From positions 1 to 51,989 of the forward strand of contig JAFZRF010000020.1 of NCBI GenBank assembly GCA_017620025.1: a stretch of 51,989 nt of DNA, written 5' to 3'. This DNA comes from Ruminococcus sp. GTDB taxonomy: Bacteria > Bacillota > Clostridia > Oscillospirales > Ruminococcaceae. The notes under the pieces are model-generated. The model did no database searches and was not told the DNA's origin. It was given only the letters and a program-made list of their open reading frames with translations. Shown here piece by piece: positions 5,299 to 51,989 of this stretch (positions are counted from its first letter, which is position 1; every line of letters begins with the position of its first letter). The position numbers and the translations under genes were made by a program.

Positions 5299-6149
5299 AA
5301 AAGAAGGGTTCGCTGAAGCGCCGGCTGATCATAGGCGGAGCTGCGGCGGCAAGCCTTACTATCCTGTATACCTGGTTCTTCACGATGGAGACAGTCAGTT
5401 ACGAGCTGACATCGGACAAGCTCACAGACAGCATCAGGATAGTGTTCGTCTCCGATCTCCACAGCTGCCGTTACGGCGGCAGGGATCAGAAGACTCTGAT
5501 GAAGGCCATAGACGCAGCGGAACCGGATATAGTTCTTTTCGGCGGCGATGCAGTAGACCACGTCGGCGATCTTAAGGACGTCTGCTCCATCATGAAGCAG
5601 GTCAGGGAAAAGTATCCCTGCGGATACGCCCCCGGCAACCATGAGGTCATGAGACACGATCTGAGCAGCGTCTACGACATGGTCACGAATGAGGCGGGAG
5701 TTCCGCTCCTCCTCGGCAAGGACAGCCTTGATATCACGGTGAAAGGCCAGCAGATAAGCATATTCGGCATTATTGATGCCTGGGAGTACGGCGTCAAGGG
5801 CACACAGCTCGACAACGTCCGTGAGAAGCTCGACAAGGACAGGTATGTCATCCTCCTTGCGCATCAGCCGGAGCAGATAGACGAGTATCTTGCAGAGGGA
5901 GATGATTTCGATCTTGTACTGTCCGGCCATGCACACGGCGGACAGTGGAGGATACCCGGCATACTCGAGCAGGGACTCTATGCACCGGATCAGGGCCTCT
6001 TCCCGAAGCGCACCTCGGGCATATTCCATGAGGGCAATACCGTGCAGATAGTCAGCAGAGGGCTTTCACGTCCGGCAAGGATGGCGATAATACCGAGATA
6101 CTTCAATCATCCGGAATTGTCAGTCATAGAAATAAAGCCGGGAAAATGA
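5295..6149 (+). CDS. Membrane-anchored metallophosphoesterase (YaeI/calcineurin-like)
   Basis: The protein has 284 residues. An N-terminal membrane segment (about 11-30) is followed by the full calcineurin-like metal-binding set: VSDLHS, FGGDAVD, APGNHE and SGHAHGGQWR. The order and spacing fit the YaeI-type family, some members of which act on UDP-diacylglucosamine-like or other phosphoesters at the membrane. It overlaps the carrier-protein gene by 4 bases (ATGA). Its substrate and its link to the acylation cassette are not known from sequence; it may just be the last gene of the operon. Confidence 0.88.
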   Translation: MKKKGSLKRRLIIGGAAAASLTILYTWFFTMETVSYELTSDKLTDSIRIVFVSDLHSCRYGGRDQKTLMKAIDAAEPDIVLFGGDAVDHVGDLKDVCSIMKQVREKYPCGYAPGNHEVMRHDLSSVYDMVTNEAGVPLLLGKDSLDITVKGQQISIFGIIDAWEYGVKGTQLDNVREKLDKDRYVILLAHQPEQIDEYLAEGDDFDLVLSGHAHGGQWRIPGILEQGLYAPDQGLFPKRTSGIFHEGNTVQIVSRGLSRPARMAIIPRYFNHPELSVIEIKPGK

Positions 6150-6198
6150 ACCGTCAGTCCGTTCGGACGAACCGGAAGAAAAATAGTATTCTTCCCTC

Positions 6199-6227
6199 TT
6201 GTAATCGGTGGGTAAAAATGATATAAT
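6199..6227 (+). promoter_or_regulatory. SigA-type promoter for the rRNA methylase gene
   Basis: TTGTAA at 6199-6204 and TATAAT at 6222-6227 are 17 bases apart. It lies 79 bases before the start codon at 6306 and downstream of the preceding operon. Confidence 0.6.
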
Positions 6228-6305
6228 ATAGAGTACGGACCGCGGAGGTCTGTACAGAAAAAGAAATAATACAAGGAGCAGGGCAGCCGCCCGCAAAATG
6301 GATAA

Positions 6306-7082
6306 ATGGATAAGAAGAATATGAGGCCGGAACCTGCTGAGCGTCAGGACAGCGGAGATCTCATCTTCGGCAGGAACCCGGTAATAGAGGCACTCAGGTC
6401 CGGAGCTGCTCTCGATACGATATATATGTGCGGCAGCGGAGGAAGCCTCGGGCTGATCCGCAGTCTTGCAAAGGAAAAGGGCGTCGTGGTAAAGGACGTC
6501 CAGGACAAGAAGCTGACACAGCTCTCCGGAGGCGCTTCCCATCAGGGAGTTGCCGCAGTCACGGCGTGTGCGGAATACGTCACCCTTGACGATATACTGG
6601 CTGTATCGGCAGAGAAGGGCACAGCTCCCTTCATAATCATATGCGATGAGATCGAGGACCCCCATAACCTCGGAGCTATAATACGTACCGCAGAGACCTC
6701 GGGCGCAGACGGTATAATAATCCCCAAGCGCCGCAGCGCAGGACTCAACGGAACCGTATTCAAGACCTCCGCAGGAGCAGCGAGCTACGTGCCGGTCGCA
6801 AGAGTGCCTAACCTTGCCTCTGCCATAGACGAGCTCAAGGAGAGGGGCGTATGGATATACGGCACCGATGCATCGGGTGCTGAGTACACCGAGACCGATT
6901 TTACGGGAGCCTGTGCGCTCGTCATCGGCTCTGAGGGCTTCGGCATAAGCGCCCTTATACAGAAGAAATGCGATTTCATGGTCAGACTGCCCATGCAGGG
7001 CAGGATCAATTCTCTGAACGCCTCAGTTGCAGCGGGCATATTCATGTATGAAGTGCTCCGTCAGCGCAGGGCCAGGAAGTGA
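6306..7082 (+). CDS. rlmB: TrmH-family 23S rRNA 2'-O-ribose methyltransferase (RlmB type)
   Basis: The 258-residue protein has an N-terminal substrate-binding part (FGRNPVIEALRSG) and a SpoU/TrmH knotted domain with all three motifs: DEIEDPHNLGAIIRTAE, LVIGSEGFGIS and INSLNASVAAGIFMYEVLRQR. RlmB methylates the 2'-OH of a conserved guanosine in 23S rRNA using S-adenosylmethionine. The start is unusual. The AAGGAG at 6273-6278 lies far from the ATG, with a small GGGC/GCCC hairpin in between that could bring them closer. A separate ATG at 6298 is out of frame. The exact target base is inferred from family only. Confidence 0.88.
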   Translation: MDKKNMRPEPAERQDSGDLIFGRNPVIEALRSGAALDTIYMCGSGGSLGLIRSLAKEKGVVVKDVQDKKLTQLSGGASHQGVAAVTACAEYVTLDDILAVSAEKGTAPFIIICDEIEDPHNLGAIIRTAETSGADGIIIPKRRSAGLNGTVFKTSAGAASYVPVARVPNLASAIDELKERGVWIYGTDASGAEYTETDFTGACALVIGSEGFGISALIQKKCDFMVRLPMQGRINSLNASVAAGIFMYEVLRQRRARK

Positions 7083-7093
7083 GGAGGGATCTG

Positions 7094-9640: not shown

Positions 9641-9648
9641 ATCAAGGG

Positions 9649-9671
9649 ACCTGTACCTCTCCGGTACAGGT
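9649..9671 (+). terminator. Short hairpin between the ATPase-like and LCP genes
   Basis: ACCTGTACC and GGTACAGGT form a 9-bp stem with a 5-base loop. The following sequence (TCTTG) is only weakly T-rich, so it may be an attenuator, not a full terminator. Confidence 0.4.
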
Positions 9672-9722
9672 TCTTGAATATCCGCCGTCCGGTCAGCGGG
9701 CGGCTGACGAAAGGAGAACGCT

Positions 9723-11258
9723 ATGTCAGACGGAAAAAAGAAACTTGTACGTTCCGACAAGCAGACAGTAAATACAGACAACGAGACCACGATGTTCATA
9801 CCCGGAGGCGGACAGCCTCAGCAGGCGCAGCAGTACGGCGCCCCGCAGGGGCAGCAGCCCTATTACGGACAGCCTCAGCAGGCACAGCAGTACGGCGCTC
9901 CGCAGGGCCAGCAGCCTTATTACGGGCAGCCTCAGCAGCCGCAGTACGGCGCACCGCAGGGGCAGCAGCCCTATTACGGACAGCCGCAGTACGGCGCCCC
10001 GCAGGGGCAGCAGCCCTACTACGGACAGCCACAGCAGCCGCAGTACGGCGCACCGCAGGGGCAGCAGCCCTACTACGGACAGCCGCAGCAGGTACAGTAC
10101 AGCGCCCCGCAGCAGCCCTATTACGGGCAGCCTCAGCCTCAGCAGCGCAGAACTCAGCAGAGCAGCAGCTCATCCGGAAAGAAGAAAAAGCAGCAGAGCA
10201 GCCGTCCGAAGCAGGAAAGAAGAACTGTGTCCGAACCTGTTGCAGCCGCTGCTGCACCGAGCAGACACAGAGGACTTCCCGTTCCGAAGTTCATCAAGCG
10301 TTTTATCACCACGCTGATACTGCTTGCACTCCTGCTTTTCGGCTGTTATTCATGTGCATCGTTCATGGTGATTAAACGCCTTGACCATCAGACAGTCGGC
10401 AGCCGTGTAAGGACTAAGGGCGCAATGAATGCCTCCTACGTTTCAAGCATACTCCTTATCGGTACGGACGGACGTCTTACCGGCGAACCGAGCCGCTCTG
10501 ACACGATGATACTGATGTCGATAAACAGCAAGACCAAAGAAGTGGTGCTCACCTCCTTCATGCGTGACTGCTACGTCAATATCCCGGGCTACGGCTACAA
10601 CAAGCTCAATTCCGCCTACGTCAGCGGAGGCGCAGGTCTCCTTATGGATACCATCGAGAGCAACTTCAACGTGAAGGTCGATGACTATGTATGCGTCAAT
10701 TTCGTATCCTTTGCCAACATCGTGGATGCGGTCGGAGGCCTTGACCTCTCCGTAAGCGATGCAGAGGCAGGCGAGATAAACACTATCCTCCAGGCAGAGG
10801 TGAACGGCCTTATGGGCGACGACACCAACGACAGCCTGCTCTCGGGCGGCGGAAAGCTGCACCTCAACGGAAAGCAGGTGCTCTCCTACGCACGTATCCG
10901 CTATATCGGAAATGCCGATTTCGAGAGAACGAGCCGTCAGCGTGAGGTGCTTACGCTCCTCGCCAAGAAGCTCCGCAGCTTCAAGCCCTCGGTAATTACC
11001 GGAGTTGTGAAGAACGTTGTTCCCAATGTGGGGACGAACATGAGCGATATGGATATGTATACCATGAGTCTGAAGCTCCCGTTCATACTCAAATACGACT
11101 TCCGTCAGGTACAGATACCTGCGGAGGGAACATACTGGGAGGTATGGGATGACAATGCCGGCTCGGCGCTCGGAGTAGATTTCGATGCCAATCAGGCAGT
11201 CATTAAGGATAATGTCTTCACAAAGGAGAAGACAGCAGCAGAGGAGGCTGAGGAATGA
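9723..11258 (+). CDS. LytR-CpsA-Psr (LCP) family wall-polymer ligase with Gln/Pro-rich repeat tail
   Basis: The protein has 511 residues. After a short basic start, about residues 30-140 are tandem repeats of the form YGAPQGQQPYYGQPQQ. A basic stretch, one membrane segment (about 196-222) and an LCP domain follow (ILLIGTDGRLTGEPSRSDTMIL, TSFMRDCYVNIPGYGYNKLNSAY, YARIRYIGNADFERTSRQREVL, which carries the conserved Arg residues). LCP enzymes attach anionic polymers to peptidoglycan from lipid carriers. The repeats lie on the cytoplasmic side if the membrane segment is single. AAGGAG precedes the ATG. It overlaps the following lipoprotein gene by 4 bases. Confidence 0.93.
   Translation: MSDGKKKLVRSDKQTVNTDNETTMFIPGGGQPQQAQQYGAPQGQQPYYGQPQQAQQYGAPQGQQPYYGQPQQPQYGAPQGQQPYYGQPQYGAPQGQQPYYGQPQQPQYGAPQGQQPYYGQPQQVQYSAPQQPYYGQPQPQQRRTQQSSSSSGKKKKQQSSRPKQERRTVSEPVAAAAAPSRHRGLPVPKFIKRFITTLILLALLLFGCYSCASFMVIKRLDHQTVGSRVRTKGAMNASYVSSILLIGTDGRLTGEPSRSDTMILMSINSKTKEVVLTSFMRDCYVNIPGYGYNKLNSAYVSGGAGLLMDTIESNFNVKVDDYVCVNFVSFANIVDAVGGLDLSVSDAEAGEINTILQAEVNGLMGDDTNDSLLSGGGKLHLNGKQVLSYARIRYIGNADFERTSRQREVLTLLAKKLRSFKPSVITGVVKNVVPNVGTNMSDMDMYTMSLKLPFILKYDFRQVQIPAEGTYWEVWDDNAGSALGVDFDANQAVIKDNVFTKEKTAAEEAEE
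9813..10140 (+). repeat. In-frame tandem repeats coding YGAPQGQQPYYGQPQ units
   Basis: Near-identical DNA units of about 45-57 bases repeat six to seven times inside the LCP gene. The units differ by loss or gain of a CAGCAG block, so copy number may vary between strains. The high similarity between units, with mostly synonymous differences, suggests recent expansion. Confidence 0.85.
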
Positions 11259-12337
11259 AAAAGAGAATACTGAGCCTTGCTGTGGCAGCTTGTATGCTTA
11301 CGGGCTGCTCGGCAGCAGATAAGCTTCTCGGCAATAAGGAATACGAACCACCGGAGGACGTTACCCCCTTCAACAAGGTAGAGCTTACGAACTACTTCGA
11401 GGGCGAGGAGGATTCACTCTGGTATCAGCAGCTCCGTGAGAAGCTCACCGCTCTTGAGCTTGAGCCTGTACTCGATGAGAGAGTCGGCACTTCTGAGCTC
11501 AAGCAGACCTTTGAAGAGATGCGCAATGACTGTCCGGAGGTATTCTGGTACGGCGGATGGAGTATGCACCCGAAGGGTGATTCCACCCGTGTTGAGGTCA
11601 CCATCCTTCAGGGACTCGAGGCTGACGATCTGCCGAAGATGTATGACGAACTGAAGGAGGCGGCACAGGAGATAATCAACGAGATACCCTCAGGCAGCAG
11701 CGACTATGAAAAGGCACTCTTTGTACACGACTATATCGCAAATCACTGCGAATATGACTATGATTCCATGCATGAGGATCATATGGGACTCTGGCATACT
11801 TCCTACGGTGCACTGGTCGATCATAAGGCTGTTTGCGCCGGATATGCAGAGGCTTTCCAGTACCTCATGAAGCTTCTCGGTATCGAGGGCGGCGTATGTT
11901 CCGGCTTCTCATACAGAGGCGGCAGCCACGCATGGAACTACATAAAGCTTGACGGCCACGACTACTGGATAGATGTCACATGGGATGACTACGAGGGACA
12001 TGATCCCGGCCACGCCTACTTCCTGTTCAACGATGAGCAGATGCTCCGTACACGCTGGCTCGATGCCGGACAGAACTACGCACCTGAGTGCGACTCCTCC
12101 GATGTGAGCTGGTACAAGAAGAACAATGCATACTTCACGGAGTACAACGAGGATTCAATCTCTGCCATCACATCTGCGAACGGCGGAAAATGCGATATCA
12201 TGTTCAGCGATTTCGAGACATACAAGACAGCCCTTGACGAGCTTATCGGCAAGAACCATATGTTCAAGCTTGACGGCGTAACAGGCTCAGTAACATACGA
12301 CCGTGACGACAGAATGTACGTTTTCAGAATACTTTAA
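11255..12337 (+). CDS. Transglutaminase-like lipoprotein
   Basis: The 360-residue protein begins with a lipoprotein signal (LTGC, lipidated Cys18). A transglutaminase-like core follows with a complete catalytic triad: Cys194 (KAVCAGYAEAF), His225 (SHAWNYIKLDG) and Asp240 (YWIDVTWDD). Bacterial members of this superfamily are usually cysteine peptidases or peptidoglycan-related enzymes, not true cross-linkers. A C-terminal region of about 90 residues (from about residue 270) has no motif I recognise. The start ATGA overlaps the LCP stop, so it is translationally coupled to a wall-polymer ligase. A strong terminator follows directly. Confidence 0.88.
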   Translation: MKKRILSLAVAACMLTGCSAADKLLGNKEYEPPEDVTPFNKVELTNYFEGEEDSLWYQQLREKLTALELEPVLDERVGTSELKQTFEEMRNDCPEVFWYGGWSMHPKGDSTRVEVTILQGLEADDLPKMYDELKEAAQEIINEIPSGSSDYEKALFVHDYIANHCEYDYDSMHEDHMGLWHTSYGALVDHKAVCAGYAEAFQYLMKLLGIEGGVCSGFSYRGGSHAWNYIKLDGHDYWIDVTWDDYEGHDPGHAYFLFNDEQMLRTRWLDAGQNYAPECDSSDVSWYKKNNAYFTEYNEDSISAITSANGGKCDIMFSDFETYKTALDELIGKNHMFKLDGVTGSVTYDRDDRMYVFRIL

Positions 12338-40036: not shown

Positions 40037-41026
40037 ATGAAAAAAGCTAAGAGAATGTTGGCGGCCGTTATGGCCGCAGGGATGATGTTTTCTGCGATGC
40101 CTGCTATGGCATCAGCAACTCCGTACTATCCCGATATGCAGAAAGCTCTGGAGGAATGCGGCGAAGGAGCAGTTGTCGTAAATGTTGAATACCCTTTCAC
40201 TTATAAAGATGCTGCAACCTATTTCGTGCTTGATAAGAACGGCAATATGGCAAGGTTCTTCGAGCTTGAGACAATCATTTCCGTGAAGTTCCGTAACGGC
40301 TATACGGCTGATGATGTCGAGCTTCCGGAGGGAACATCAATTAAATACGAAGATTACAGCAATTATCCTGATGCTGCAATTAAACAGCTCGAAAAACTGC
40401 GTGAAGACGGTATAGACCTGTCACCGGGATATTATGTGCACTACAAGTATTTCGATGACCATAAGGCTGCACTTGCCGCAGTAAAAGCTTCTCCGGCAAT
40501 AGAGCAGATTAATACCGTTACAGTGATAGAGAAGTACAAAGCTCCGGATGTTTTAAACATAGCAGTCAAAACAAAAATGTCCGCTGAGGATTTCATTGCA
40601 CTCTACCCCGAGCTTGGCTTAACCGTGTCTGATACAGCAAGCAACGGATACAGCTATGTGCTTGATCTTGCTGATGCTATCAGTCCACGTATGAAGGAGC
40701 CCGGAAAGGCGTATGAGGCTATGGTAAGGCTTGCAGCAAGTGGAACAGAATATAAGTTCAATGTAGGAGTAGCAACATGGGAGTCTGATACGGCTATAGA
40801 TACTTTCGGCTGCTCTGAGACCTGCACTCCCGGCGATGCAAACTGCAACGGCACAGTCGATGTTGCCGATGTAGTAGCCGTACTCCAGTACATGACCAAC
40901 AGCACGAAGTATCCGCTCTCCGAGCAGGGCATAATCAACGCCGATATCGACGGCGAAGAAGGCATAACCGGCGGCGATGCAAGCGCAATTCAGAGGTTAG
41001 ATGCCGGCATCTGGGACGAATCATGA
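40037..41026 (+). CDS. Secreted protein with divergent C-terminal dockerin
   Basis: The 329-residue protein has a signal peptide (about 1-28, AMPAMASA) and about 230 residues I do not recognise, with possible inhibitor- or propeptide-like halves (each with a YxVHYKYFDDHKAALAAVK or VLNIAVKTKMSAEDFIALYPEL-type helix). The end is a dockerin: GDANCNGTVDVADVVAVLQYM and ADIDGEEGITGGDASAIQRLD. The second calcium loop is unusual (GEEGITGG), so that half may be weak. It should be a scaffold-bound, non-catalytic or regulatory component. AAAGGAGG lies before the ATG. Confidence 0.82.
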   Translation: MKKAKRMLAAVMAAGMMFSAMPAMASATPYYPDMQKALEECGEGAVVVNVEYPFTYKDAATYFVLDKNGNMARFFELETIISVKFRNGYTADDVELPEGTSIKYEDYSNYPDAAIKQLEKLREDGIDLSPGYYVHYKYFDDHKAALAAVKASPAIEQINTVTVIEKYKAPDVLNIAVKTKMSAEDFIALYPELGLTVSDTASNGYSYVLDLADAISPRMKEPGKAYEAMVRLAASGTEYKFNVGVATWESDTAIDTFGCSETCTPGDANCNGTVDVADVVAVLQYMTNSTKYPLSEQGIINADIDGEEGITGGDASAIQRLDAGIWDES

Positions 41027-41100: not shown

Positions 41101-41170
41101 AGTATTTCACACCTCCTCTTCAAATCAACATCTTTAGTACCGAATATGACAAAACTGTAAGGTCAGGATA

Positions 41171-41199
41171 ATGAAATAGTCAGAAATCTATGTTATAAT
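41171..41199 (+). promoter_or_regulatory. Promoter of the ABC transporter operon
   Basis: TATAAT at 41194-41199 is clear; the -35 (ATGAAA, 41171-41176, 17 bases away) is weak, fitting a promoter that needs an activator such as the encoded response regulator. Confidence 0.5.
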
Positions 41200-41227: not shown

Positions 41228-41938
41228 ATGGAGTTGTTGAAAGTTGAGGAGCTTTGCAAGGTATACGGCAAGGGAGAGAATGAAGTAAGGGCGGTGGACG
41301 GCGTATCGTTCAGCGTACCCAAGGGACAGATGGTCGCTATAATCGGTGCGAGCGGTTCGGGCAAATCCACGCTCCTTCACATGATAGGCGCAGTAGACCG
41401 TCCGACCTCCGGCAAGATATGGCTCGACGGTCAGGACGTATTTCAGCAGAACAACAGGGAGCTTGCTATATTCCGCAGAAGACAGGTAGGTCTTATATAC
41501 CAGTTCTACAACCTGATACCGGTACTCACGGCAGAGGAGAACATCATCCTCCCGCTTTTTATGGACGGCAGAAAGCCGGATAAGGAGCATCTTGAAAATA
41601 TACTCGGTATGCTCGGACTGAAGGAGCGAAGGGATCATCTGCCTTCCCAGCTTTCCGGCGGTCAGCAGCAGAGAGTGTCCATAGGCAGGGCACTGTTCAC
41701 CTCACCGCAGGTGATACTTGCAGACGAGCCGACAGGAAACCTCGACAGTAAGAACAGCGCCGAGATAATGGAGCTCCTCCGCAGATCTAACCGTGAGCTG
41801 AAGCAGACAACTCTTATCATCACCCATGACGAGAATATCGCAGAGCAGTGCGACCGCATCATAGTGCTGAGCGACGGAAAGATAATCTCTGACGAAGCAA
41901 ACAGCGCTCCGGAGGAGGCTGACAGCAATGAAATATGA
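41228..41938 (+). CDS. ABC transporter ATP-binding protein (LolD/BceA/MacB type)
   Basis: The 236-residue protein is a full ABC ATPase: Walker A IIGASGSGKST, Q-loop YQFYNLIPVLT, signature SQLSGGQQQRVSIGRA and Walker B VILADEPTGNLDS. The close match is to MacB/BceA-type ATPases, which drive FtsX-like permeases. It overlaps its permease gene by 11 bases. AGGGAGGTG precedes the ATG. Likely role: removal or release of an antimicrobial or lipid-bound substrate at the membrane. Confidence 0.95.
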   Translation: MELLKVEELCKVYGKGENEVRAVDGVSFSVPKGQMVAIIGASGSGKSTLLHMIGAVDRPTSGKIWLDGQDVFQQNNRELAIFRRRQVGLIYQFYNLIPVLTAEENIILPLFMDGRKPDKEHLENILGMLGLKERRDHLPSQLSGGQQQRVSIGRALFTSPQVILADEPTGNLDSKNSAEIMELLRRSNRELKQTTLIITHDENIAEQCDRIIVLSDGKIISDEANSAPEEADSNEI

Positions 41939-44900
41939 GAAGCTGCTTGCCTCCCGCTACATAAAGGCGCAGAAAAGGCAGTCCGCATTCACGGTCATAA
42001 GCATCACTGCTGCGGTCGCTGTCATGACGATGATATTCGTGCTGTACAGCGTATACATGGACTGTATGCACCTGACTGTCTACAGCTCAAAGCCATGGCA
42101 TTTTGCGATCAGCGATATACCTGTCACAGAGGAACAGGGCGAGTCGATCAGGGACATGGAACACGTCAGACGTCTCAAGCTCTTCGATCTGGGTGACGGC
42201 ATGATAAGAGCCGAAGTCCTCTTCGACGGCGATATAGGTGACAGAGTCATATGGCAGCAGCAGCTCGAGAAGAAGCTCGGTATCGACAAGAGGATGAACA
42301 ATGTTTCCTGGAACGACAGCCTGATGAACTATGACGGTATCGGGCCGGCGGCACATCTTCACAAGCTCAGGATATTCTGTCTGTTCTTCATGTTTGCCGT
42401 ATTCATGGCATTCGCTCTGAGGCTCGTCGTAGATACCGCCTTTGAGGTATCCTCCAAGGAGCGTGAGAGGCACTACGGAGTATTGCAGTCCGTCGGCGCA
42501 ACGCCGGAGCAGATAGTCAGGATAATAACCTCGGAGGGCATGAAGCTCTGCCTGACCGCTGTACCGCTGGGACTTATCGCCGGTATCGGATTTGCCTTCC
42601 TGATGTACAAGGCAGTGCTTGCAGCGGGTATTGCGGAGCTGTTTGAAAGCAGCACAGAGGCTTCGTTCGCTTTTCCTTTCAGGGTCGATCCGCTGATGCT
42701 GCTCGTAGCAGCCGCAGTAGGTATCATATGGGTATTCCTCTCCGCTTACGGTGTTGGTATGCGTGTAATAAAGAAGTCCCCCATGGAGGCTATAACCGCC
42801 CGTGCAAATGATGTGGAGAAGGTAAGGAAGCGTTCTCTTTCCGGCTTGCTGTTCGGAATATCCGGCAGCATTGCCTCACGAAACGCAAGGAGACAGAAGA
42901 AGCGCTTTGTGATAACCGTTCTGACGCTCACCGTTTCGATATCCATGTTTGCTATGTTCTCCTCCTTTATAGGCGGGCTTGAAAGCTCGATAAAAGAAAT
43001 AATACGTTTAGGTGCAAACGACTACAGTGATGTTGATTTCACAGCATCCAGAGAAAACGGCACTTTCTCAGCGACAGAAGCCACGGAAAAGCTGCTCGGG
43101 GAAAGCGGTCTTTTCAAAGATATCGGCGTGGGTGTCAGTGTAAATATCTATGCACGCAACGGTGACTTTAAAGACTGGCTTAATGTACTCTATGTCAACA
43201 AGACACAGTATGAGCGTATGTTCGGGGAAGATCCGCCTGTGAGCTATGAGGAACTCGCAGCTGCGGGCGGCTATATCGCCAATACAGGCAAGCCCATTCT
43301 CGGGGCGTACATCTCCGATATAGATAACGGTGTGCTCAATGTCGTAAGTGTATACAGAAAGGTCCCCGAAGATAAGCTTGCGGAGACTGCCGACCGGAAA
43401 GCTCTCAGTGAGTATCTCGAGGTGAAGGAAACAGACCGTCAGCTGGATATCATCGGAACAGGATCAAAAGAATGGTCGTCGATCGATCTGATCGGAGCTA
43501 AAGAGACATACGATGCTATAGCTGATGAATGGTACGGCAACTACAATATCTTCACCTGTTTTGAGATGGCATACATAAAGGAAGAATGTTACACCAACGC
43601 AGATCTTGACAAGGTCACAGAATGGTTCAAGGAGCATTCCGCAGATCTGACGCTCGAAAACTGTCAGTATGAGGACAAGACGAAGGTACACTATATCATG
43701 GCGGCAGTAAAGGTCGGCCTGCTGATACTGAATGTATTCATCGGCCTTGTTGCGCTCATCAACCTTATGAACATCATTTCAACAGGTATCGCCAACAGGC
43801 GCAGCGAGCTTGCTTCCATGCAGTGTATCGGCATGACGGACAGGCAGCTCCGCCGCATGGCAGTGATAGAGGTGCTCCAGTTCACAGGTGCGGCAGCAAT
43901 TGCGTCGGCTGTTATCTGCTGGCTCTTCATATTCGGTTCGGAAAAGATCCTCATACCGCTGCTGAGCAGGTCATTCATGGATGATGATGACGAAACAAGG
44001 CAGATACTGACAAAGCTCATCAGCTTTAAGGGTGCATCACCGTTTATCCTCATAGCCCTTGCATCTCTTGCGGCATTTGCAGCAGGCTGTGTTACTTCGC
44101 TCATCATGCTCAGGGCACAGGATAATGAGAGTCTTGCGGATCAGATAAGAGGCTCGGAGATGAAGCTCGATACAAAGAAGACACATATCCTCCGCAACAG
44201 CATCATAGCAGCTGCAGGCATAGCCGTTCTTGCTGTTGCAGGTCTGAGGACATACAGCGTTATCTCCTACCGCAATGGCAGGAAGGAATACGAAAAGGCA
44301 GGCTACCTGAATCTTGTGGATTCAAACGGCTTCAGGATGAACGTCTACAGCACGGGCGCAGAACACGGAAAGCATACTATCGTCGGTATGGCGGGTATGG
44401 GTGTCCAGGCTTATCCGATACTGACAAAGCAGCTGAACGAGCAGCTGGGCAGGGAGAACACTCTTGTTTACCCCGACCGTGCAGGCTACGGATTCAGCGA
44501 TGATTCATACAAAGAACAGAACGTAGAGCAGGTGGTGGAGGATTATCGCACGGGACTGAAGAATGCCGGCTTTGAAGCACCCTACGTGCTGATGCCGCAT
44601 TCCTGGGCCAGCTACTATGCGTTCTACTGGGAGAATAAGTATCCCGACGAAGTGGAAGCGATCATCTTCATGGACTGCACATGGCTGCCGAAGAATGAAA
44701 TGTGGCGCTTCTTCACTGCGGACAACTATCCCTCCATGGCTGATGCAAGATCTGCCGCAAGAAGACTGTTCCTGCGCACATGGCTCGGACTGGACACGTT
44801 TTCCTCTGACTCAGATCCGGAAGATATCGCCCACGGCAGGTCATTGTTCACGGAAGAGGAAACGAAGCTCAGACGGCTTGCCGGCAGCCGGCAGTTCAGC

Positions 44901-45287
44901 GCTGCAAATCTGTCGTCATTACTTCTCGAAGAGCAGGATACCCTAACAGTCCTTTCACTGCTGAAGCCGACAGATACACCGAAGCTTTCCTTCTCGGCAA
45001 CGCCGGGCTGTGAAGAGGATGTGATCGAAAACTACAGATTCAGAAAGGCAGATTACGAAGCGGCAGGACTGGAATACAATATCGATCCCGAAACTGCCGG
45101 AAAGGCAGAATGGAGACAATCTGGAAAATCATACCAGCAGTTCTTTGAGAAGGATATAAAGTCTTTCTGGGAAAGCTGCGGCAATTGCAGGACTGTAAAC
45201 ATCAGCGGAGAGCATGATCTGTTCTTTTCGCAGAATGCGGAAAAGGTGGCAGGGATCATAAATGATTTCCTTGCGGAGATCGAATGA
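41928..45287 (+). CDS. FtsX-like ABC permease fused to an alpha/beta hydrolase
   Basis: The 1119-residue protein has two FtsX modules: membrane segments at about 19-44, 148-168, 205-233 and 255-278, then at about 327-352, 595-620, 653-678 and 705-728, with an extracytoplasmic loop of about 240 residues in the second module, as in BceB-type permeases. A ninth segment (about 758-777) leads to an alpha/beta hydrolase (about 800-1119), which by topology should be outside. The hydrolase has YPDRAGYGFS, a nucleophile motif MPHSWASYY (Ser892), KYPDEVEAIIFMD and SGEHDLFF (His1096). Normal permeases of this type stop near residue 780. No frameshift is involved; the frame is continuous. Confidence 0.9.
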   Translation: MKYEKLLASRYIKAQKRQSAFTVISITAAVAVMTMIFVLYSVYMDCMHLTVYSSKPWHFAISDIPVTEEQGESIRDMEHVRRLKLFDLGDGMIRAEVLFDGDIGDRVIWQQQLEKKLGIDKRMNNVSWNDSLMNYDGIGPAAHLHKLRIFCLFFMFAVFMAFALRLVVDTAFEVSSKERERHYGVLQSVGATPEQIVRIITSEGMKLCLTAVPLGLIAGIGFAFLMYKAVLAAGIAELFESSTEASFAFPFRVDPLMLLVAAAVGIIWVFLSAYGVGMRVIKKSPMEAITARANDVEKVRKRSLSGLLFGISGSIASRNARRQKKRFVITVLTLTVSISMFAMFSSFIGGLESSIKEIIRLGANDYSDVDFTASRENGTFSATEATEKLLGESGLFKDIGVGVSVNIYARNGDFKDWLNVLYVNKTQYERMFGEDPPVSYEELAAAGGYIANTGKPILGAYISDIDNGVLNVVSVYRKVPEDKLAETADRKALSEYLEVKETDRQLDIIGTGSKEWSSIDLIGAKETYDAIADEWYGNYNIFTCFEMAYIKEECYTNADLDKVTEWFKEHSADLTLENCQYEDKTKVHYIMAAVKVGLLILNVFIGLVALINLMNIISTGIANRRSELASMQCIGMTDRQLRRMAVIEVLQFTGAAAIASAVICWLFIFGSEKILIPLLSRSFMDDDDETRQILTKLISFKGASPFILIALASLAAFAAGCVTSLIMLRAQDNESLADQIRGSEMKLDTKKTHILRNSIIAAAGIAVLAVAGLRTYSVISYRNGRKEYEKAGYLNLVDSNGFRMNVYSTGAEHGKHTIVGMAGMGVQAYPILTKQLNEQLGRENTLVYPDRAGYGFSDDSYKEQNVEQVVEDYRTGLKNAGFEAPYVLMPHSWASYYAFYWENKYPDEVEAIIFMDCTWLPKNEMWRFFTADNYPSMADARSAARRLFLRTWLGLDTFSSDSDPEDIAHGRSLFTEEETKLRRLAGSRQFSAANLSSLLLEEQDTLTVLSLLKPTDTPKLSFSATPGCEEDVIENYRFRKADYEAAGLEYNIDPETAGKAEWRQSGKSYQQFFEKDIKSFWESCGNCRTVNISGEHDLFFSQNAEKVAGIINDFLAEIE

Positions 45288-45627: not shown

Positions 45628-46302
45628 ATGCCGAAGATACTGCTCGTTGAGGACGATGAACAGCTTGCAAGGTTCCTGATGAGGTTTCTGAATTCAGAAG
45701 GCTATACGACCGATCATGCAAGCGGACAAAAGGAAGCCATGCGCCTGTTCGGGGAGAACTGCTATGACTGCGTGCTGCTCGATATATCGCTGAAGGACGG
45801 CAACGGGTACTCAGTGTGCGCTGCGGTGAAGGCGGCGGGCGATACTCCTGTGATATTCATTACCGCCTCGGCTGATGAGGCCTGTACGGTCGCCGGCTTT
45901 GAGATAGGCGCTGATGACTATATCGGCAAGCCCTTCGGCACCCGTGAGCTGCTTGCAAGAATGAAGAATGTCATGCGCCGGCATCAGAGGTCTTCTCCTC
46001 TTCTGCGGTGCGGCAATGTCACGATAGACCCGATCAAGGGCATCGTTTTCAAGAACGGCAGCGAGCTTACTCTGTCAGCGCTGGAATACCGGCTGCTGCT
46101 GGTATTCTTATCCAACAAGAACCAGCTGCTCTCACGTGACCGTCTTGCAGAGGAGCTGTGGTCGCTCACCAAGGAATTCGTCTCGGACAATACGCTTTGT
46201 GTATATATAAGGCGTCTGCGTGAGAAGATAGAGGACGATCCGCAGGAGCCGCATATCATACAGACTGTCAGAGGTCTCGGCTATAAGGCGGTGGACGAAT
46301 GA
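45628..46302 (+). CDS. OmpR-family response regulator (BceR-like)
   Basis: The 224-residue protein has a receiver domain (ILLVEDDEQLARFL, phosphorylated Asp52 in VLLDISLKDG, ITASADE, DDYIGKPFGTRELLARM) and an OmpR-type winged helix (LSALEYRLLLVFLSNKNQLLSRDRLAEELW to YIRRLREKIEDDPQEPHIIQTVRGLGYK). It is the likely regulator of the ABC transporter upstream. ATG 45628 has GGAGGTG 7 bases before it. It overlaps the kinase gene by 4 bases. Confidence 0.95.
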   Translation: MPKILLVEDDEQLARFLMRFLNSEGYTTDHASGQKEAMRLFGENCYDCVLLDISLKDGNGYSVCAAVKAAGDTPVIFITASADEACTVAGFEIGADDYIGKPFGTRELLARMKNVMRRHQRSSPLLRCGNVTIDPIKGIVFKNGSELTLSALEYRLLLVFLSNKNQLLSRDRLAEELWSLTKEFVSDNTLCVYIRRLREKIEDDPQEPHIIQTVRGLGYKAVDE

Positions 46303-47288
46303 GGGACAAGAAACGCCGGCTAATACATTTCCTCCTGACCGCTGCTCTGGTTATTCCTTGTCTGTTTTTCAGTATCCCGTGTGCAGTGACGGCTGCAGCT
46401 GCTTCGGCGGTGTTCCTTGTGTTTTATGAAACGCTGTTTTCGCAGCGGCGAAGCAAGGTCGGGAAGCTGTGTGATGATATTGACAGGATTCTGCGCAATG
46501 ATGATATGATCTCTTTTGATGAATACAGGGAAGGGGAGCTGAGCGTACTTTCGGCGGAGATCCATAAAATGACGATACGTCTGCGTGAGCAGAATGCAGA
46601 GCTGAAAAGCGAAAAGCAGTTTGCAAAGGAAGCGCTGGAGGATATCTCACATCAGCTGAGAACTCCTCTCACATCGGTCATGATGATACTCGGACTGATG
46701 CGCTCCGCCGACCTGGAAGACAAGGAACGCACGGAGTATATGCGTGACCTGTATGAGCTGCTCGCACGCATGAAATGGCTTATCGAGACGATGCTGAGCC
46801 TTTCACGCATCGAGGCTGATGCAGTGAAGTTCGCAAAGGACACTGTTTCCTGCCGTGAGCTGATAAACAGATCCGTCGAGCCGGTTTCCGTTACTGCTGA
46901 GCTCAAGGGCGTCGAGATAAAGACGGAGATCGAAGGCGAGCCTGCATTCATAGGCGACCTTCATTACACCTCGGAGGCGTTAGTGAATCTGCTCAAGAAT
47001 GCCATTGAGCACACTCCCGAAGGCGGCACTGTTACAATAACGGCAAAGGGGAACAATATCTCCTCCGACATAACGATATCAGATACCGGCGAGGGCATAC
47101 CGGAGAAGGAACTGCCGCATATCTTCGAGCGTTTCTACCGCTCCTCGGAGTATACCAAGAATGGCTTCGGCATCGGACTTGCCTTTGCAAAAAAGGTCAT
47201 AAACGCACAGGACGGAAAACTGAAAGCATCCAATCACAAACCGCATGGTGCTGAGTTTGATATCCACTTCTACAAAACGACAATATAA
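46299..47288 (+). CDS. Intramembrane-sensing histidine kinase (BceS-like)
   Basis: The 329-residue kinase has just two membrane segments at the N-terminus (about 8-22 and 25-48) with almost no loop, so it has no outside sensor. His118 in EDISHQLRTPLTSVMM is the phosphorylation site, followed by NLLKNAIEHTPEGG, ISDTGEGIPEKELPHIFERFYRS and FGIGLAFAKKVI. Kinases of this build usually sense through a partner ABC permease, which fits the unusual transporter upstream. Confidence 0.94.
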   Translation: MRDKKRRLIHFLLTAALVIPCLFFSIPCAVTAAAASAVFLVFYETLFSQRRSKVGKLCDDIDRILRNDDMISFDEYREGELSVLSAEIHKMTIRLREQNAELKSEKQFAKEALEDISHQLRTPLTSVMMILGLMRSADLEDKERTEYMRDLYELLARMKWLIETMLSLSRIEADAVKFAKDTVSCRELINRSVEPVSVTAELKGVEIKTEIEGEPAFIGDLHYTSEALVNLLKNAIEHTPEGGTVTITAKGNNISSDITISDTGEGIPEKELPHIFERFYRSSEYTKNGFGIGLAFAKKVINAQDGKLKASNHKPHGAEFDIHFYKTTI

Positions 47289-47326
47289 AACAGGCAGATG
47301 TTCATACGACGGAACATCTGCCTGTT
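47289..47326. terminator. Bidirectional terminator
   Basis: AACAGGCAGATGTTC and GAACATCTGCCTGTT form a perfect 15-bp stem between the kinase gene (plus) and the esterase-like gene (minus). Confidence 0.9.
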
Positions 47327-47422: not shown

Positions 47423-48688
47423 TCACTCAGTCCATATCTCTGTGGGGTTTGCTTCATAAACGAGTATCATTGCATCGTACATATCCTCAGGAGTCAGATT
47501 CAGCTGATAGAACGGTTTTACCAGCTTGATGGCGAGGTTGTACTGCTCACCGAGTGAGCCGGTTTTCATCGGGTTGTGTATCTTCTCATATACAGGATCA
47601 TTTTCCGGTACTGAGCTGAAATCAAGATAGCACATATTTTCATCGCTGTACTTTACCTGATAGGCGAGAGGGTCGTCAGAGCAGAATTTGTGGACCTCAC
47701 GGCCGTTTTTGCCCGGAAGATTATCCTTTGTGATATAGAAATCAGTACCTATAGCGAAGTAGTCATCTCCGAGATCATCATGAAGGAATCTTCCGAGAAA
47801 AGTAGCCACGGAAGACTGATTCTTCGTCATGTGGCCGTTGTGACAGGAGAGCATGAGACGGCTGTCATGATCGCTTTCTTCAATACCGAGCGCCCACATA
47901 ACGTTTTCCTTCATCTGAGTGTCACGGTACTTTGTTGAGAAGCGTTGTTTCTCACGGTATTCCATATAGCATCTGAGCATATCAAACGCACGGCGGGCAG
48001 TAGCAAACTTTTCCTTGCCTGCTGCCGCTTCATAGCTGCTCTGATCTGCATCCAGTTCCGAAGCTGTTTCATCGATGAAAGAGATTATCCTATCATAATC
48101 GGATGGACTGTATGCATCTTCCTCTGTGCCGAAGAGTTCATCGAGCGCAGATGATATTTCCTCTGCTTTTTCAGGAGCGGCAATTGTATAGAAATTCTTT
48201 ATTACCTGAACAGTACACATATCATTCTGTATATCTGCACCGTAGATACGCACCTTGTCATTTTCAGCAGCCGTTTCGTTGTATTCACGCATCCAGGTGA
48301 TGAGTTCGCACATCTCGTCTGTACGGTAAATACGGTATCCGAGCTTCCTTGTGATATCCTCAGCAGTACCTTCGCCGCCGTTTATGTACTCATTTGCAAG
48401 AGCACATCCGCCGAAATCACCTTCGAGTATAAGTCCGCGAACATTTGTGGTCTCGACCAGAGTCCTGAATACAGAAAGCTTAAGCTCCTGGAATTCTTTG
48501 TTACCGTGTGTAGCCTCGCCAAGTGCGATGATTCTTGCGTTATCCGGAACGGTGAGGGATTCCGCAGCTGTAACGTAGTTTCCGAAGCTTTCTATCTTAG
48601 AGGGCTTCAAATGGATCTGAGTTGCCCCGAAACCAGCCCCCAGTGCAAGGATCACTGCTGATGCTATAATTATACCTGCTTTTTTCAT
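47423..48688 (-). CDS. Erythromycin-esterase-family protein with membrane anchor or signal
   Basis: The 421-residue protein starts with a hydrophobic signal or anchor (MKKAGIIIASAVILALGAGFGATQI). It then shows the erythromycin esterase family motifs ARIIALGEATHGNKEFQELKLSVFRTLVE, LILEGDFGGC and LMLSCHNGHMTKNQSSVATFLGRFL. EreA/EreB open macrolide rings, but most family members have other or unknown substrates. Being exported makes a cytoplasmic macrolide-type role less likely. It is convergent with the two-component genes and may belong to the same defence region. Confidence 0.85.
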   Translation of the reverse strand: MKKAGIIIASAVILALGAGFGATQIHLKPSKIESFGNYVTAAESLTVPDNARIIALGEATHGNKEFQELKLSVFRTLVETTNVRGLILEGDFGGCALANEYINGGEGTAEDITRKLGYRIYRTDEMCELITWMREYNETAAENDKVRIYGADIQNDMCTVQVIKNFYTIAAPEKAEEISSALDELFGTEEDAYSPSDYDRIISFIDETASELDADQSSYEAAAGKEKFATARRAFDMLRCYMEYREKQRFSTKYRDTQMKENVMWALGIEESDHDSRLMLSCHNGHMTKNQSSVATFLGRFLHDDLGDDYFAIGTDFYITKDNLPGKNGREVHKFCSDDPLAYQVKYSDENMCYLDFSSVPENDPVYEKIHNPMKTGSLGEQYNLAIKLVKPFYQLNLTPEDMYDAMILVYEANPTEIWTE

Positions 48689-49035: not shown

Positions 49036-50082
49036 TTATGCTGTATCATCCTCAGATTTAGAAATAATGCTGTTGAAGTAGCTGTCGATCATGCTGTCTA
49101 TCTTTTTACGTTCTGAACTGAAGGTCTGCTGGTATACCGACTTCAATACGCTGTCAGTTGACCAGCCGCCGCGCTCCATGGCATACTTGTCGGGTACTCC
49201 GAGCATAAGCATGATCGAGGCGTTCAGGTGGCGAAGGTCATGGAAGGTCATGTCAAAACCATTCTCTGTAATCAGCTTTTTAAATCTGTCATATAGTATC
49301 TTCCTTGATACAGGAACGATGAAGTCCTCCTGGCTGTCATGCGGAACAGTCATTATCAGATCATATATGTAATCTGGAAGTGCGAGCTGACGCTGACTCT
49401 TTTCGGTCTTGCAGCCTTCACGGACTTTGAAGCCGTCCTTGGTGCGGATAATTGTACGCCTCACGCTAATGGTGTGGTTGTCTGTATCAACATCTTTGAA
49501 CTTCAGGCCTATTACTTCTCCGATCCTGAGGCTTAACCAGGCTGCGAGCAGAACAGGCAGCTCTACATCAGTCCCCTTAAAAATAGGAAATAGATCTCCA
49601 AATGTCGGTAACTCCTTCTCCCTTTTTCTGAGCTTCGGCAGCTTTACACTGTTCAGATTAATATCTACCTCATACATCTTCAGCACAGATTTCAGTAGGC
49701 CAAAAGCATTCTTGAGCGTCTTCGGACTGACACTTTCAGCATCGATATTTACTGCCTTTTGAATCTGAATCGGCGTTAGTTCGGAGAGTTTAACATCCAT
49801 AATCGATCTGAAGCGAAACCTCAGCACCTGATCATAGTTGCATATCGTTGTCTCCTCAAGGATGTTTCTGCGACTCTCGATGTACATCGCTATCGCAGCT
49901 GACAGCGTAGCATTCTGGTCGTAGAGCTGTTCTCTGTTGTTTGTGAAATCAGCTGCCAGCTTCAGTGCCTTCCACTCTTCATCTGCCGTAAACGACCTGA
50001 CGATCCGCTTGCCTGTGATTTCATCATGTCCGGCGACTACCTGAACCCGGTAACTGCCAGAGGGTAGTTTCTTAGCTTTCAT
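49036..50082 (-). CDS. Tyrosine site-specific integrase
   Basis: The 348-residue protein has an N-terminal arm-binding-like region (SGSYRVQVVAGHDEITGKRIVRSFT), a core-binding SAM-like domain (about 60-150) and the catalytic domain with Arg186 (LSLRIGEVIGL), His281 and Arg284 (FHDLRHLNAS), Trp307 in place of the second His (GGWSTD) and the nucleophile Tyr317 (KSVYQQTF). It joins and excises the element at the tRNA site beside it. AAAGGAG is found before the ATG at 50082. The promoter overlaps a palindrome (50108-50138). Confidence 0.93.
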   Translation of the reverse strand: MKAKKLPSGSYRVQVVAGHDEITGKRIVRSFTADEEWKALKLAADFTNNREQLYDQNATLSAAIAMYIESRRNILEETTICNYDQVLRFRFRSIMDVKLSELTPIQIQKAVNIDAESVSPKTLKNAFGLLKSVLKMYEVDINLNSVKLPKLRKREKELPTFGDLFPIFKGTDVELPVLLAAWLSLRIGEVIGLKFKDVDTDNHTISVRRTIIRTKDGFKVREGCKTEKSQRQLALPDYIYDLIMTVPHDSQEDFIVPVSRKILYDRFKKLITENGFDMTFHDLRHLNASIMLMLGVPDKYAMERGGWSTDSVLKSVYQQTFSSERKKIDSMIDSYFNSIISKSEDDTA

Positions 50083-50107
50083 ATGTACTCCTTTCCGGAT
50101 AGCGGAA

Positions 50108-50138
50108 AGTGGTACAATACCATTAGTATTATACCACT
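50108..50138. promoter_or_regulatory. Near-perfect palindrome over the int promoter (probable operator)
   Basis: AGTGGTACAATAC and GTATTATACCACT match as inverted repeats at 12 of 13 positions around CATTA. It contains the -10 hexamer of the int promoter, so a bound repressor would block int. Confidence 0.65.
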
Positions 50139-50156
50139 TTTCTTTTGATTTGTCCA
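50128..50156 (-). promoter_or_regulatory. SigA-type promoter of int
   Basis: On the minus strand TGGACA (50151-50156) and TATAAT (50128-50133) are 17 bases apart, 45 bases before the int ATG. Confidence 0.7.
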
Positions 50157-50163
50157 GTTGTTG

Positions 50164-50391
50164 TTATAATGCAAGAAGCTCATGCAGTTCCATGCTGTTC
50201 ACCACCAGGAAGTTGTCAATCTTCTCCAGTGTAAGGCTCCTTGCGTTCTTGTCATAGTCCCTCAGTGTTCTCTCGCACACGTTAAGGTATGCGGCAAGCT
50301 CACTGTCACTGACATCGCGGAGACTCTGCCAGTAGCGAATCTTACACCACACGCGCTTGTAGAGTGTGATGCGAGTTGATTTCTTAGCCAT
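50164..50391 (-). CDS. Small helix-turn-helix protein
   Basis: The 75-residue protein has a basic N-terminus and a Cro/C1-like helix-turn-helix (LRDVSDSELAAYLNVCERTLRDYDKNARSLTLEKIDNFL). It lies directly upstream of int on the same strand. It may repress int at the palindrome, or help in excision. ATG 50391 has AGGAGG 8 bases before it; the GTG at 50400 is inside the spacing and is rejected. Confidence 0.8.
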   Translation of the reverse strand: MAKKSTRITLYKRVWCKIRYWQSLRDVSDSELAAYLNVCERTLRDYDKNARSLTLEKIDNFLVVNSMELHELLAL

Positions 50392-50471
50392 TATGTTCAC
50401 CTCCTATTTGGGGAATATCGGCGATTTATGCTTGATTCGCCTCGCCGTATGTAGTATAATAATGATATAGT

Positions 50472-50489
50472 AGCGCCCCGAAGGGCGCA
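50472..50489 (-). terminator. Hairpin after the ATPase gene
   Basis: GCGCCC and GGGCGC form a 6-bp stem with a short loop. No T run follows, so it may be a weak terminator or processing site. Confidence 0.4.
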
Positions 50490-50501
50490 TACATATGCTA
50501 A

Positions 50502-51989
50502 TCAAGATATATGATACTCCGCCTTGAATCTTCCATACAGCGGCGTATCAACGAATTTTATAGTTTTGCAGTGAATAACTGCAGGTTCATTTACACCGTC
50601 AAGCTTATTATAGCAGTCACAGCTGAGTATGAAGTCACCGATACCCATGGAGCCAAAGCCAGCGTCCACAGGGTTCTTATATCCAAGCTCAGCAGCGATC
50701 CTGTCAATGGACTTAGATGGCTTGAAGAATATTTTTATACCCGCCTCCTTCACCACATCGATAGCGTGACTGCTCGTCGAGATATACTGCGTCGTCATAC
50801 CTATAAACTTAGTATGGAATTTCCTGCCCTGTGTGAGAATAGTGTGCAATGGGCTGCCTTCAGCAAAATTCTGATCCTTGATTTCGTCTATTACTATGCT
50901 CAGCGGAGCGGTGTCGTGGTCACGCTGCCATTCGAAAGCCGACGATATCATTGCGTCAAGCAGAGAGTGAACTTTATCGCCAGACTCGTTCCCGAAGGAT
51001 ATAACAGGGATTTCCTTCGATTTCTCAAAGAATTCTGCCCATCCACACTCCTCGAAACCTATAGTGTCAATGTCGTCAAGCGTAGAGCTGATAAGGCTGA
51101 ACACATGATGACCTGTCTTACCGCCTCTTTTAAGTGTACTACGGAGCATTTCCGTAGTAACTGAAGTAACATTTGACTGCCGCTTCAGCATATCCGAAAT
51201 TATGCTTGTAAGTAATCTCGCTTCTTCCTTGTCGAGCTTGCCTGCAATAGCCTTTATAAAGCCAACGATGCGGCGCTTCTTAGCCGGAAGGCCGGAGCAG
51301 TCGCCGACAAACAAAAGATTTACCGGTAGCTTCCTTTTTCCGTCTGCTACATCAATGAACTCAAATAGGGAGTTGACTACCTCTTCGGGCAGTGCCCTGA
51401 GGACTTCATCACGAGTGAATGAGTCACTTACGTCACAAACAAGCATCTTGCTACCGAGCATTGCTAACAGCGGAAGCAAATTCGTGGCACAGAAGGACTT
51501 TCCTTTTCCACTTTGGCCTGTTATCAAGATATGGTCATTCGACTTGTTTCCGAAGGAGATATCCTTACAGACATATCTACCGTCTGCTGCTATACCCAAC
51601 GGAAGAAGCTCGTTCTGTTCAAGCTCACTGTATTCGAGAAGATACTTCTGATAATCAGCGAGATCGATCCTCTTACGATTCTCAGCGTTGATGAGTTTCT
51701 TGCTTATGCCATAGGTATACAGCATGTACGGCACACCGTCTGAATTCTGAGCATGGAAACGGTAACACTTGCTGTTCTTGTCGTTGATATTCAGGCATTC
51801 GTAAGCCTTTAATGCCTCTGTCAGCGAGTTAACGCTATGAAGCTTTAGCTTACTGCGAGCAAGCTCTCCTATTATGTCCGTATCGAAATAGACGTAGTCA
51901 TCGTCAACGATGACCGAGTTGTTTCCTTGATTGATAACGATAAACTTCGTCCGCTTTATGAAATTAAAGCGTCCGCTGCTAATCTCCTC
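50502..51989 (-). CDS. HerA/FtsK-like ATPase of the mobile element (5' end beyond the window)
   Basis: The frame stays open from 50502 to the right edge, giving at least 495 residues; the true start is outside. I translated 51735-51989 on the minus strand and found no stop, so a start at GTG 51734 is not the gene start. The ATPase core shows Walker A ILITGQSGKGKSFCATNLL, Walker B PLSIVIDEIKDQNF and the arginine/sensor stretch TILTQGRKFHTKFIGMTTQ. This pattern fits DNA-pumping HerA/FtsK/VirB4-like ATPases in conjugative elements. Which function it has, coupling protein or other, cannot be said without the start and neighbours. Confidence 0.75.
   Translation of the reverse strand, partial: EEISSGRFNFIKRTKFIVINQGNNSVIVDDDYVYFDTDIIGELARSKLKLHSVNSLTEALKAYECLNINDKNSKCYRFHAQNSDGVPYMLYTYGISKKLINAENRKRIDLADYQKYLLEYSELEQNELLPLGIAADGRYVCKDISFGNKSNDHILITGQSGKGKSFCATNLLPLLAMLGSKMLVCDVSDSFTRDEVLRALPEEVVNSLFEFIDVADGKRKLPVNLLFVGDCSGLPAKKRRIVGFIKAIAGKLDKEEARLLTSIISDMLKRQSNVTSVTTEMLRSTLKRGGKTGHHVFSLISSTLDDIDTIGFEECGWAEFFEKSKEIPVISFGNESGDKVHSLLDAMISSAFEWQRDHDTAPLSIVIDEIKDQNFAEGSPLHTILTQGRKFHTKFIGMTTQYISTSSHAIDVVKEAGIKIFFKPSKSIDRIAAELGYKNPVDAGFGSMGIGDFILSCDCYNKLDGVNEPAVIHCKTIKFVDTPLYGRFKAEYHIS

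Follow-up and report, generated by a model that had tools for sequence, protein, structure and literature searches.

In this study, we analysed a stretch of 51,989 nucleotides from Ruminococcus sp. (contig JAFZRF010000020.1 of assembly GCA_017620025.1; hereafter the window), and in particular an operon in which an ATP-binding cassette (ABC) permease and an alpha/beta hydrolase are encoded in one chain. The operon runs in the order of a regulator box with promoter, an ATPase, the permease-hydrolase, a response regulator, a histidine kinase and a hairpin, as listed below with positions in the window.

41147-41171, forward strand: probable response-regulator box TGACAAAACTGTAAGnnnnnGATAA, conserved upstream of the operon, with a presumed function
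41171-41176, forward strand: weak -35 element ATGAAA, just after the box
41194-41199, forward strand: -10 element TATAAT with a TG extension, in a region conserved in the upstream alignment
41228-41938, forward strand: ABC ATPase of the LolD/MacB type (type VII); PF00005 at 124.9 bits, LolD at 230 bits, under its cut-off of 307.75
41928-44159, forward strand: permease part (residues 1-744), two FtsX modules with 8 membrane segments; unfused relatives stop near residue 744
42054-42371, forward strand: ectodomain 1 (residues 43-148), between segments 1 and 2
42969-43709, forward strand: ectodomain 2 (residues 348-594), an exchanged cassette in relatives
44160-44267, forward strand: linker and ninth membrane segment (residues 745-780, the segment within 754-776), start of the apparently captured hydrolase piece
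44268-45284, forward strand: alpha/beta hydrolase domain (residues 781-1119), predicted outside, with a variable cap at about 921-1012
45628-46302, forward strand: OmpR-family response regulator (PF00072, PF00486); mean identity 88% in 22 fused loci
46299-47288, forward strand: histidine kinase (PF00512, PF02518); mean identity 80% in 22 fused loci
47289-47326, forward strand: terminator-like hairpin with a 15-pair stem, directly after the kinase stop

Architecture of the fusion protein and its operon

The gene at 41928-45287 (forward strand) is a single intact frame of 1119 residues, and the initial annotation, which had read it as a permease with two FtsX modules and a C-terminal alpha/beta hydrolase, was borne out at exactly these positions, the same fusion being found in other loci. 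The domain search proposed at that time returned, in one chain, the Pfam family PF02687 (FtsX; 72.3 bits) in two stretches and a hydrolase match, namely Abhydrolase_1 at residues 834-929, with 21.2 bits in the full chain, under the cut-off of 25.8, and with 25.8 bits, at the cut-off, when the hydrolase part was scored alone. Among the 26 complete fused proteins compared here (a set that omits L075 and L078, cut by contig ends, and the frame-split L081), Abhydrolase_1 was matched by 23 of the hydrolase domains and Abhydrolase_6 by 21; all the families matched at E <= 0.001 were Abhydrolase_1, Abhydrolase_6, Hydrolase_4, Thioesterase and Esterase, with GDH2_N in one member. A search of solved structures with the hydrolase gave four weak matches, and the best solved relative of the permease by sequence was YtrF (31.3 bits). 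The FtsX-type modules, the ectodomain after the first segment and the LolD/MacB-like ATPase place the transporter among the type VII (FtsX/MacB-fold) ABC systems.

Hydropathy peaks were observed at residues 21-39, 149-167, 207-225, 256-274, 327-345, 596-614, 652-670, 707-725 and 754-776, the last of them being two overlapping hydropathy windows merged, and the ninth membrane segment (TM9) that had been claimed for this protein is therefore seen within 754-776. Nine segments were counted in 25 of the 26 complete fused proteins, the window protein included, and ten in one. The positively charged N-terminus, the four segments of each FtsX module and the basic stretch before segment 5 suggest that the N-terminus lies inside, that an ectodomain follows each of segments 1 and 5, and that the chain leaves segment 9 on the outer side, where the hydrolase would lie. 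The hydrolase is thus predicted to stand outside the cell, as had been proposed, by counting from an inner N-terminus through eight permease segments and TM9 rather than by charge.

Ser892 (in HSW; 44601-44603) and His1096 (in GEHD; 45213-45215), for which the initial annotation had given no acid, are present at the positions it named and are invariant in 26/26 complete fused proteins, as is Asp1042. Asp916 and Asp1031 are candidate acids, each kept in 24/26, and every one of the 26 proteins has at least one of them. The predicted nucleophile, acid and histidine stand in that order along the chain, as in alpha/beta hydrolases, and the two candidate acids presumably follow strands 6 and 7 of the fold. 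Among 25 free relatives of the hydrolase, the serine is kept in 24, the histidine in 23, an aspartate at the 916 site in 22 and an aspartate at the 1031 site in 12, and Asp916 is therefore favoured as the usual acid. It was rejected as the sole possible one, as L070 and L086 have serine at that site, both keeping Asp1031. The dN/dS of the hydrolase ranged from 0.12 to 0.45 in seven pairs, with hydrolase dS above 1 in two of these, and the domain thus looks selected and not decaying.

With regard to control of the operon, the box was found at two or fewer mismatches in 26 of 28 upstream regions, namely those of the window and of 27 of the 41 named loci, and there is little alignable sequence around it except the -10 and the ribosome-binding region. 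In the window, 0.01 matches would be expected by chance; across the window's assembly, the box has a single match at three or fewer mismatches (reversed-pattern control, 0). Among the other named loci, the box is present in L084 and L088 too; the sequence of L062, L068, L087 and L090 stops short of it, L095, L097 and L099 are without it, and L075, L078, L093, L096 and L098 stand outside the count. The ATPase and permease genes overlap by 11 bases and the regulator and kinase genes by 4. The N-terminal hydrophobic stretch of the kinase (residues 7-46) is nearly unbroken and may be read, from hydropathy, as two segments crossing the membrane with hardly any loop outside. Fourteen hairpin sites of the kind that closes the operon were counted in the region versus 5.0 in shuffles, the one after the kinase being the longest. 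As far as its sequence goes, the operon looks self-regulated; in L077, the two-component pair is divergent.

Occurrence, origin and mosaic evolution of the fusion

The window's assembly consists of 2.7 Mb in 70 contigs and is 76% complete. Within 100 same-genus genomes, the window's own included, the full-length fusion was detected in 9 genomes and 10 loci, and the nine other loci are 50-57% identical to the window and free of internal stops. A set of 297 family genomes yielded one fused copy (G391) besides the window's own, and no other fused form was found among the 295 genomes of the order or the 391 of the class at E 1e-50, a threshold at which weaker ones could be missed. The 41 named loci, 13 of which repeat sequences of another fetched set, divide into 27 with the fusion (two of them truncated by a contig end), 9 without it, 1 frame-split and 4 that lack their 3' end (L084, L088, L093 and L098) and are callable neither as fused nor as unfused. 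They are recorded under Ruminococcus flavefaciens, Ruminococcus sp., Oscillospiraceae and Clostridia, and their frames were trimmed to match residue 1 of the window protein. Most of the records are metagenome assemblies, and the fused loci include the isolates R. flavefaciens FD-1 (L086) and YRD2003 (L069).

These copies bear directly on the possibility that a lost stop or a frame error joined two genes, a case that the initial annotation had itself raised, with homologues keeping the two parts as separate genes. What speaks for it is L081 (G028; the same record as L048), in which the two parts lie in different frames; its frame change falls inside a conserved stretch just past TM9 and the second frame is without an anchor, and it was rejected as a native two-gene form. 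With 27 other fused loci, two of them in isolates, such an artefact is refuted and practically out of the question.

In a permease tree of 50 rows, with the root at the midpoint only and five rows in no group, the 28 fused rows all fall to one side of a single branch (96/99, and 94% of 200 bootstrap trees) and adjoin the unfused L082, L083 and L049. A hydrolase tree of 40 rows, which took 13 of the 26 fused rows and included two free rows twice, recovered the fused rows as one group (100/100), with the free hydrolase L122 as its neighbour (99/99). The same bacteria also have free anchored hydrolases (e.g. L122:5856-7013), which are 30-42% identical over the matched part and show the same Ser/His motifs; they mostly have one N-terminal segment and, unlike the fused form, are not joined to a permease. 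By eye, a hydrophobic stretch was seen at the N-terminus in 18 of the 19 free relatives inspected, and the fused piece starts at about residue 745, where methionine stands in 19/26, as would be seen if an anchored enzyme had been attached whole. The simplest reading would be one fusion of a still-existing unfused permease with a still-existing free anchored hydrolase, which the trees fit and do not prove.

The fused proteins share 49-58% identity with that of the window, as against means of 90% for the ATPases (window versus 25 fused loci, three of them partial), 88% for the regulators and 80% for the kinases. Mean pairwise identity is 39% in ectodomain 2 and 43% in the cap versus 69-80% in the membrane parts, and dN/dS is 0.25-0.51 in ectodomain 2 versus 0.09-0.25 in the membrane part. 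L064 and L094 (rpoB 95.4% over 2.4 kb; contigs of 93 and 134 kb) are about 90-100% identical across the operon, except for ectodomain 2 (about residues 400-590) and the stretch from about residue 758 to the gene end. In L092, whose contig measures only 11.8 kb, the hydrolase matches that of L069 at 93-100%, whereas ectodomain 2 resembles that of L065 (mostly 80-98%, with two blocks lower, versus 19-66% against L069 save one block at 78%), although rpoB is only 81-82% alike with both. L061 and L063 have mainly the hydrolase piece in common, and L086 and L070 (rpoB 97.5%) differ instead in the regulator and kinase (76%). At the level of sequence, these comparisons show that relatives differ by separate replacements of ectodomain 2 and of the hydrolase piece. 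The mosaic pairs were picked from the 16 of 325 pairs in which any segment of the fused gene has dS under 0.35, and they therefore establish that replacement occurs, not how frequently; they call for caution in that most of the records are metagenome assemblies.

Moreover, 33 flank records (1.7-7.0 kb) from 17 loci contained no homologous pair at E 1e-10, and a planted second copy of a locus was recovered by the same test, suggesting that the operon moves, or that its neighbourhood does. Two remnants were also observed: L144 (G038) consists of a 177-residue hydrolase tail with regulator and kinase and no ATPase or permease match in 16 kb, and L145 (G020) is a short frame joining TM8-TM9 to the hydrolase tail.

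Known systems and the proposed function

In YbbAP-TesA of E. coli, an esterase sits atop a type VII permease in a 2:1:1 arrangement, with the active site facing the permease, and extraction and hydrolysis of membrane-borne hydrophobic substrates is its proposed role (PMC12646458). It has in common with the present system a type VII ATPase, a single-chain duplicated FtsX permease, two ectodomains and one serine hydrolase on the outer face, here as predicted. The permease of YbbAP-TesA has 10 segments with ectodomains at TM1-2 and TM7-8, whereas here there are 8 plus TM9 with ectodomains at TM1-2 and TM5-6, and TesA, of which a P. aeruginosa relative is termed a GDSL hydrolase (PMC3715468), is a separate protein, whereas the alpha/beta hydrolase here is covalent; membership of YbbAP-TesA was rejected on these two differences. 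The sections consulted describe no two-component partner of YbbAP, and the words fusion, fused and Gram-positive do not occur in the text (PMC12646458).

In S. agalactiae, NsrFP, NsrRK and SaNSR bring together an ABC transporter, a two-component pair and an anchored serine protease cutting nisin in one resistance cluster (PMC5786555), and this clustering of a transporter, a membrane-anchored serine hydrolase and a two-component pair is found here also. The permease of NsrFP, however, is of the Bce type, the ectodomain lying between TM7 and TM8, and SaNSR is a separate protein. According to a published description, BceS complexes with BceAB and takes part in flux sensing (PMC10314905). The pair in the window had been called BceRS-like, and this stands for the anatomy of the pair, which adjoins the fusion and has a two-segment kinase with next to no loop and no sensor domain, and for a regulator that would control the transporter genes. 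It does not stand for the permease, as BceB has 10 segments and a single ectodomain between TM7 and TM8, with no hydrolase in BceAB as described (PMC10314905), as against 8+1 segments and two ectodomains here; membership of the Bce type, which is that of NsrFP, was rejected on the segment count. The MacB-like YtrEF and YknYZ of B. subtilis likewise have two 4-segment FtsX modules, 8 segments in total, but in two separate permease chains and, as described, without a hydrolase (PMC11466899), whereas here there is a single chain.

By analogy, the system appears to combine ideas of YbbAP-TesA, BceAB and NsrFP/SaNSR, made of different parts and with transporter and enzyme in one chain. Type VII ABC transporters that act together with a separate external enzyme are known; here the two are joined in one chain, with an unusual, cartridge-like evolution. 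No FtsX permease-hydrolase fusion stood among the matches listed in the open-licence literature, a search in which subscription papers fall mostly outside.

We propose, with a probability of about one half, that the operon encodes a type VII (mechanotransmission) ABC system under two-component control that has an ectoenzyme built in and takes a membrane amphiphile, probably an antimicrobial, to the tethered hydrolase. ATP binding by two ATPase subunits would move both ectodomains; these would draw an amphiphilic molecule out of the outer leaflet and pass it to the hydrolase, kept alongside by TM9, which would cut an ester, thioester or amide in the captured molecule. Lacking a sensor domain, the kinase probably senses the transporter at work, in the way that BceS senses BceAB, and the regulator would then raise expression of this operon. 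The likeliest substrates would be membrane-active antimicrobials from rumen competitors. A device that both extracts and hydrolyses, as had been suggested for this locus at first, is plausible, as the published enzyme-transporter pair YbbAP-TesA has that proposed role.

A resistance role appears likelier than housekeeping, on the basis of the patchy spread, the cassette replacement and the operon of the nearest free hydrolase. The circumstantial evidence for an antimicrobial substrate consists of these first two points together with the operon's own regulators, the unrelated flanks and a free hydrolase near a lantibiotic-protection-like ATPase. That last is found in the L122 operon (4131-11769), which holds, one after another, a regulator, a kinase, the anchored hydrolase, an ABC ATPase, two ABC-2-like membrane proteins (sub-threshold) and an S41 peptidase, and whose ABC ATPase has the lantibiotic-protection model TIGR03740 as its best NCBIfam match (207 bits, cut-off 310); it is possibly a separate resistance cluster. 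The S41 protein was rejected as NSR-like, the string ASSAE of the published TASSAEM motif being absent. In L121, an ABC ATPase lies 3 kb from the free hydrolase, and in L123 an unfused relative of the present operon lies about 5.5 kb away.

Ester lipids are abundant at the outer face of the membrane. Clearing lysophospholipids or other ester lipids from the outer leaflet, as envelope housekeeping with no antimicrobial link, would accord with this abundance and come near the role proposed for YbbAP-TesA (PMC12646458). The spread is patchy, however, with the full-length fusion in 9/100 same-genus genomes and 1/297 family genomes besides the window's own, and the lack of common flanks, the separate cassette replacement and the faster ectodomain 2 would be unusual for such a function, which we consider unlikely. 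A further alternative is a switch in place of a pump: type VII includes FtsEX, the activator of a cell-wall hydrolase (PMC11466899), in which manner the permease movement would merely toggle the tethered hydrolase with no extraction, and a covalent tether would suit conformational control. FtsEX partners, however, are peptidoglycan hydrolases, and the domain here, judged by family only, is not of that family and scores as an esterase/peptidase-type alpha/beta hydrolase. Moreover, the permease seems to have a job of its own because the hydrolase-less L082 and L083 keep ATPase, permease, regulator and kinase, and a mere switch is rather unlikely.

The enzyme might also have gained only an anchor and co-expression, with transporter and enzyme acting on different things. 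Free relatives mostly have their own anchor, and the separate replacement of hydrolase and ectodomain 2 suggests that strict matching is not needed. Divergence in the hydrolase core follows that of the permease parts (ectodomain 1 to TM8) at rank correlations of 0.47-0.54 in its second half and as weakly as 0.30-0.33 in its first half. The cap, on the other hand, covaries with the same parts at 0.57-0.69, above both core halves, which hints at contact or joint specificity, or merely at different segment rates, since faster segments may carry more signal. The fusion has also been retained in a group diverging to 49% pairwise identity, and such a passive tether is quite improbable.

Several observations weigh against the proposed capture-and-cleave system under its own control. 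Charge leaves the side of the last loop undecided, with 5 Lys/Arg on either side of TM9. The sister group of the same operon (L082, L083 and L049) is without the hydrolase, and the basic function can therefore do without the enzyme. Of the 19 free-hydrolase loci checked, only 1 has regulator, kinase and ABC genes immediately next to the hydrolase. In the fused operons L059 and L065, which keep the box, neither a close regulator nor a close kinase was found in 5.0 and 8.0 kb downstream, respectively. The single match of the box in the window's assembly is a lower bound because that assembly is 76% complete, and the box was not found at four or fewer mismatches in six more distant unfused loci, the same genome's second system included.

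If the proposed system is taken further, ectodomain 2, for catching, and the TM9-hydrolase piece, for cutting, might form two interchangeable cartridges, recombined independently in a mobile self-regulated operon and giving new capture-and-cleave specificities against changing antimicrobials in rumen Ruminococcus lineages, a possibility that we put forward tentatively. Cartridge-like swapping between strains looks as would be expected of a protection device with an ever-changing target. A single chain fixes the stoichiometry and place of transporter and enzyme, and one protein with one Ser-to-Ala change is enough to test what type VII permeases hand to enzymes. From the natural chimeras, one can see the borders cut by evolution, a guide to the part that sets specificity.

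Neighbouring genes and related systems

The operon is flanked in the window by the following genes.

40037-41026, just upstream of the operon: protein with a dockerin-like C-terminus (21.7 bits, cut-off 22.9)
47423-48688, reverse strand: member of the erythromycin esterase family (PF05139, 134.9 bits), its N-terminus bearing a hydrophobic stretch
49036-51734, reverse strand: phage-type integrase and AAA_10 ATPase, starting 1.7 kb past the operon

The esterase-family gene, which the initial annotation had noted beside the fusion, is indeed present next to the operon, but no relative of it was found in the sequence of 61 loci (48 distinct), with flanks reaching no more than about 10 kb, or less where contigs are short, and it was rejected as a partner, not being conserved there. 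No tRNA was found in the window. The AAA_10 ATPase is of a type that we take to be known from conjugation systems. In L044/L074, which are one record, and in L079, relatives of the integrase likewise occur close to the operon.

A second, unfused system was observed in the same genome (G000:C54, L056), with a permease 34%, an ATPase 79%, a regulator 70% and a kinase 49% identical to those of the operon; its regulator and kinase are divergent, and no box was found there at four or fewer mismatches. L089 and L091 carry three or two unfused permeases, each with one close ATPase and one two-component pair.

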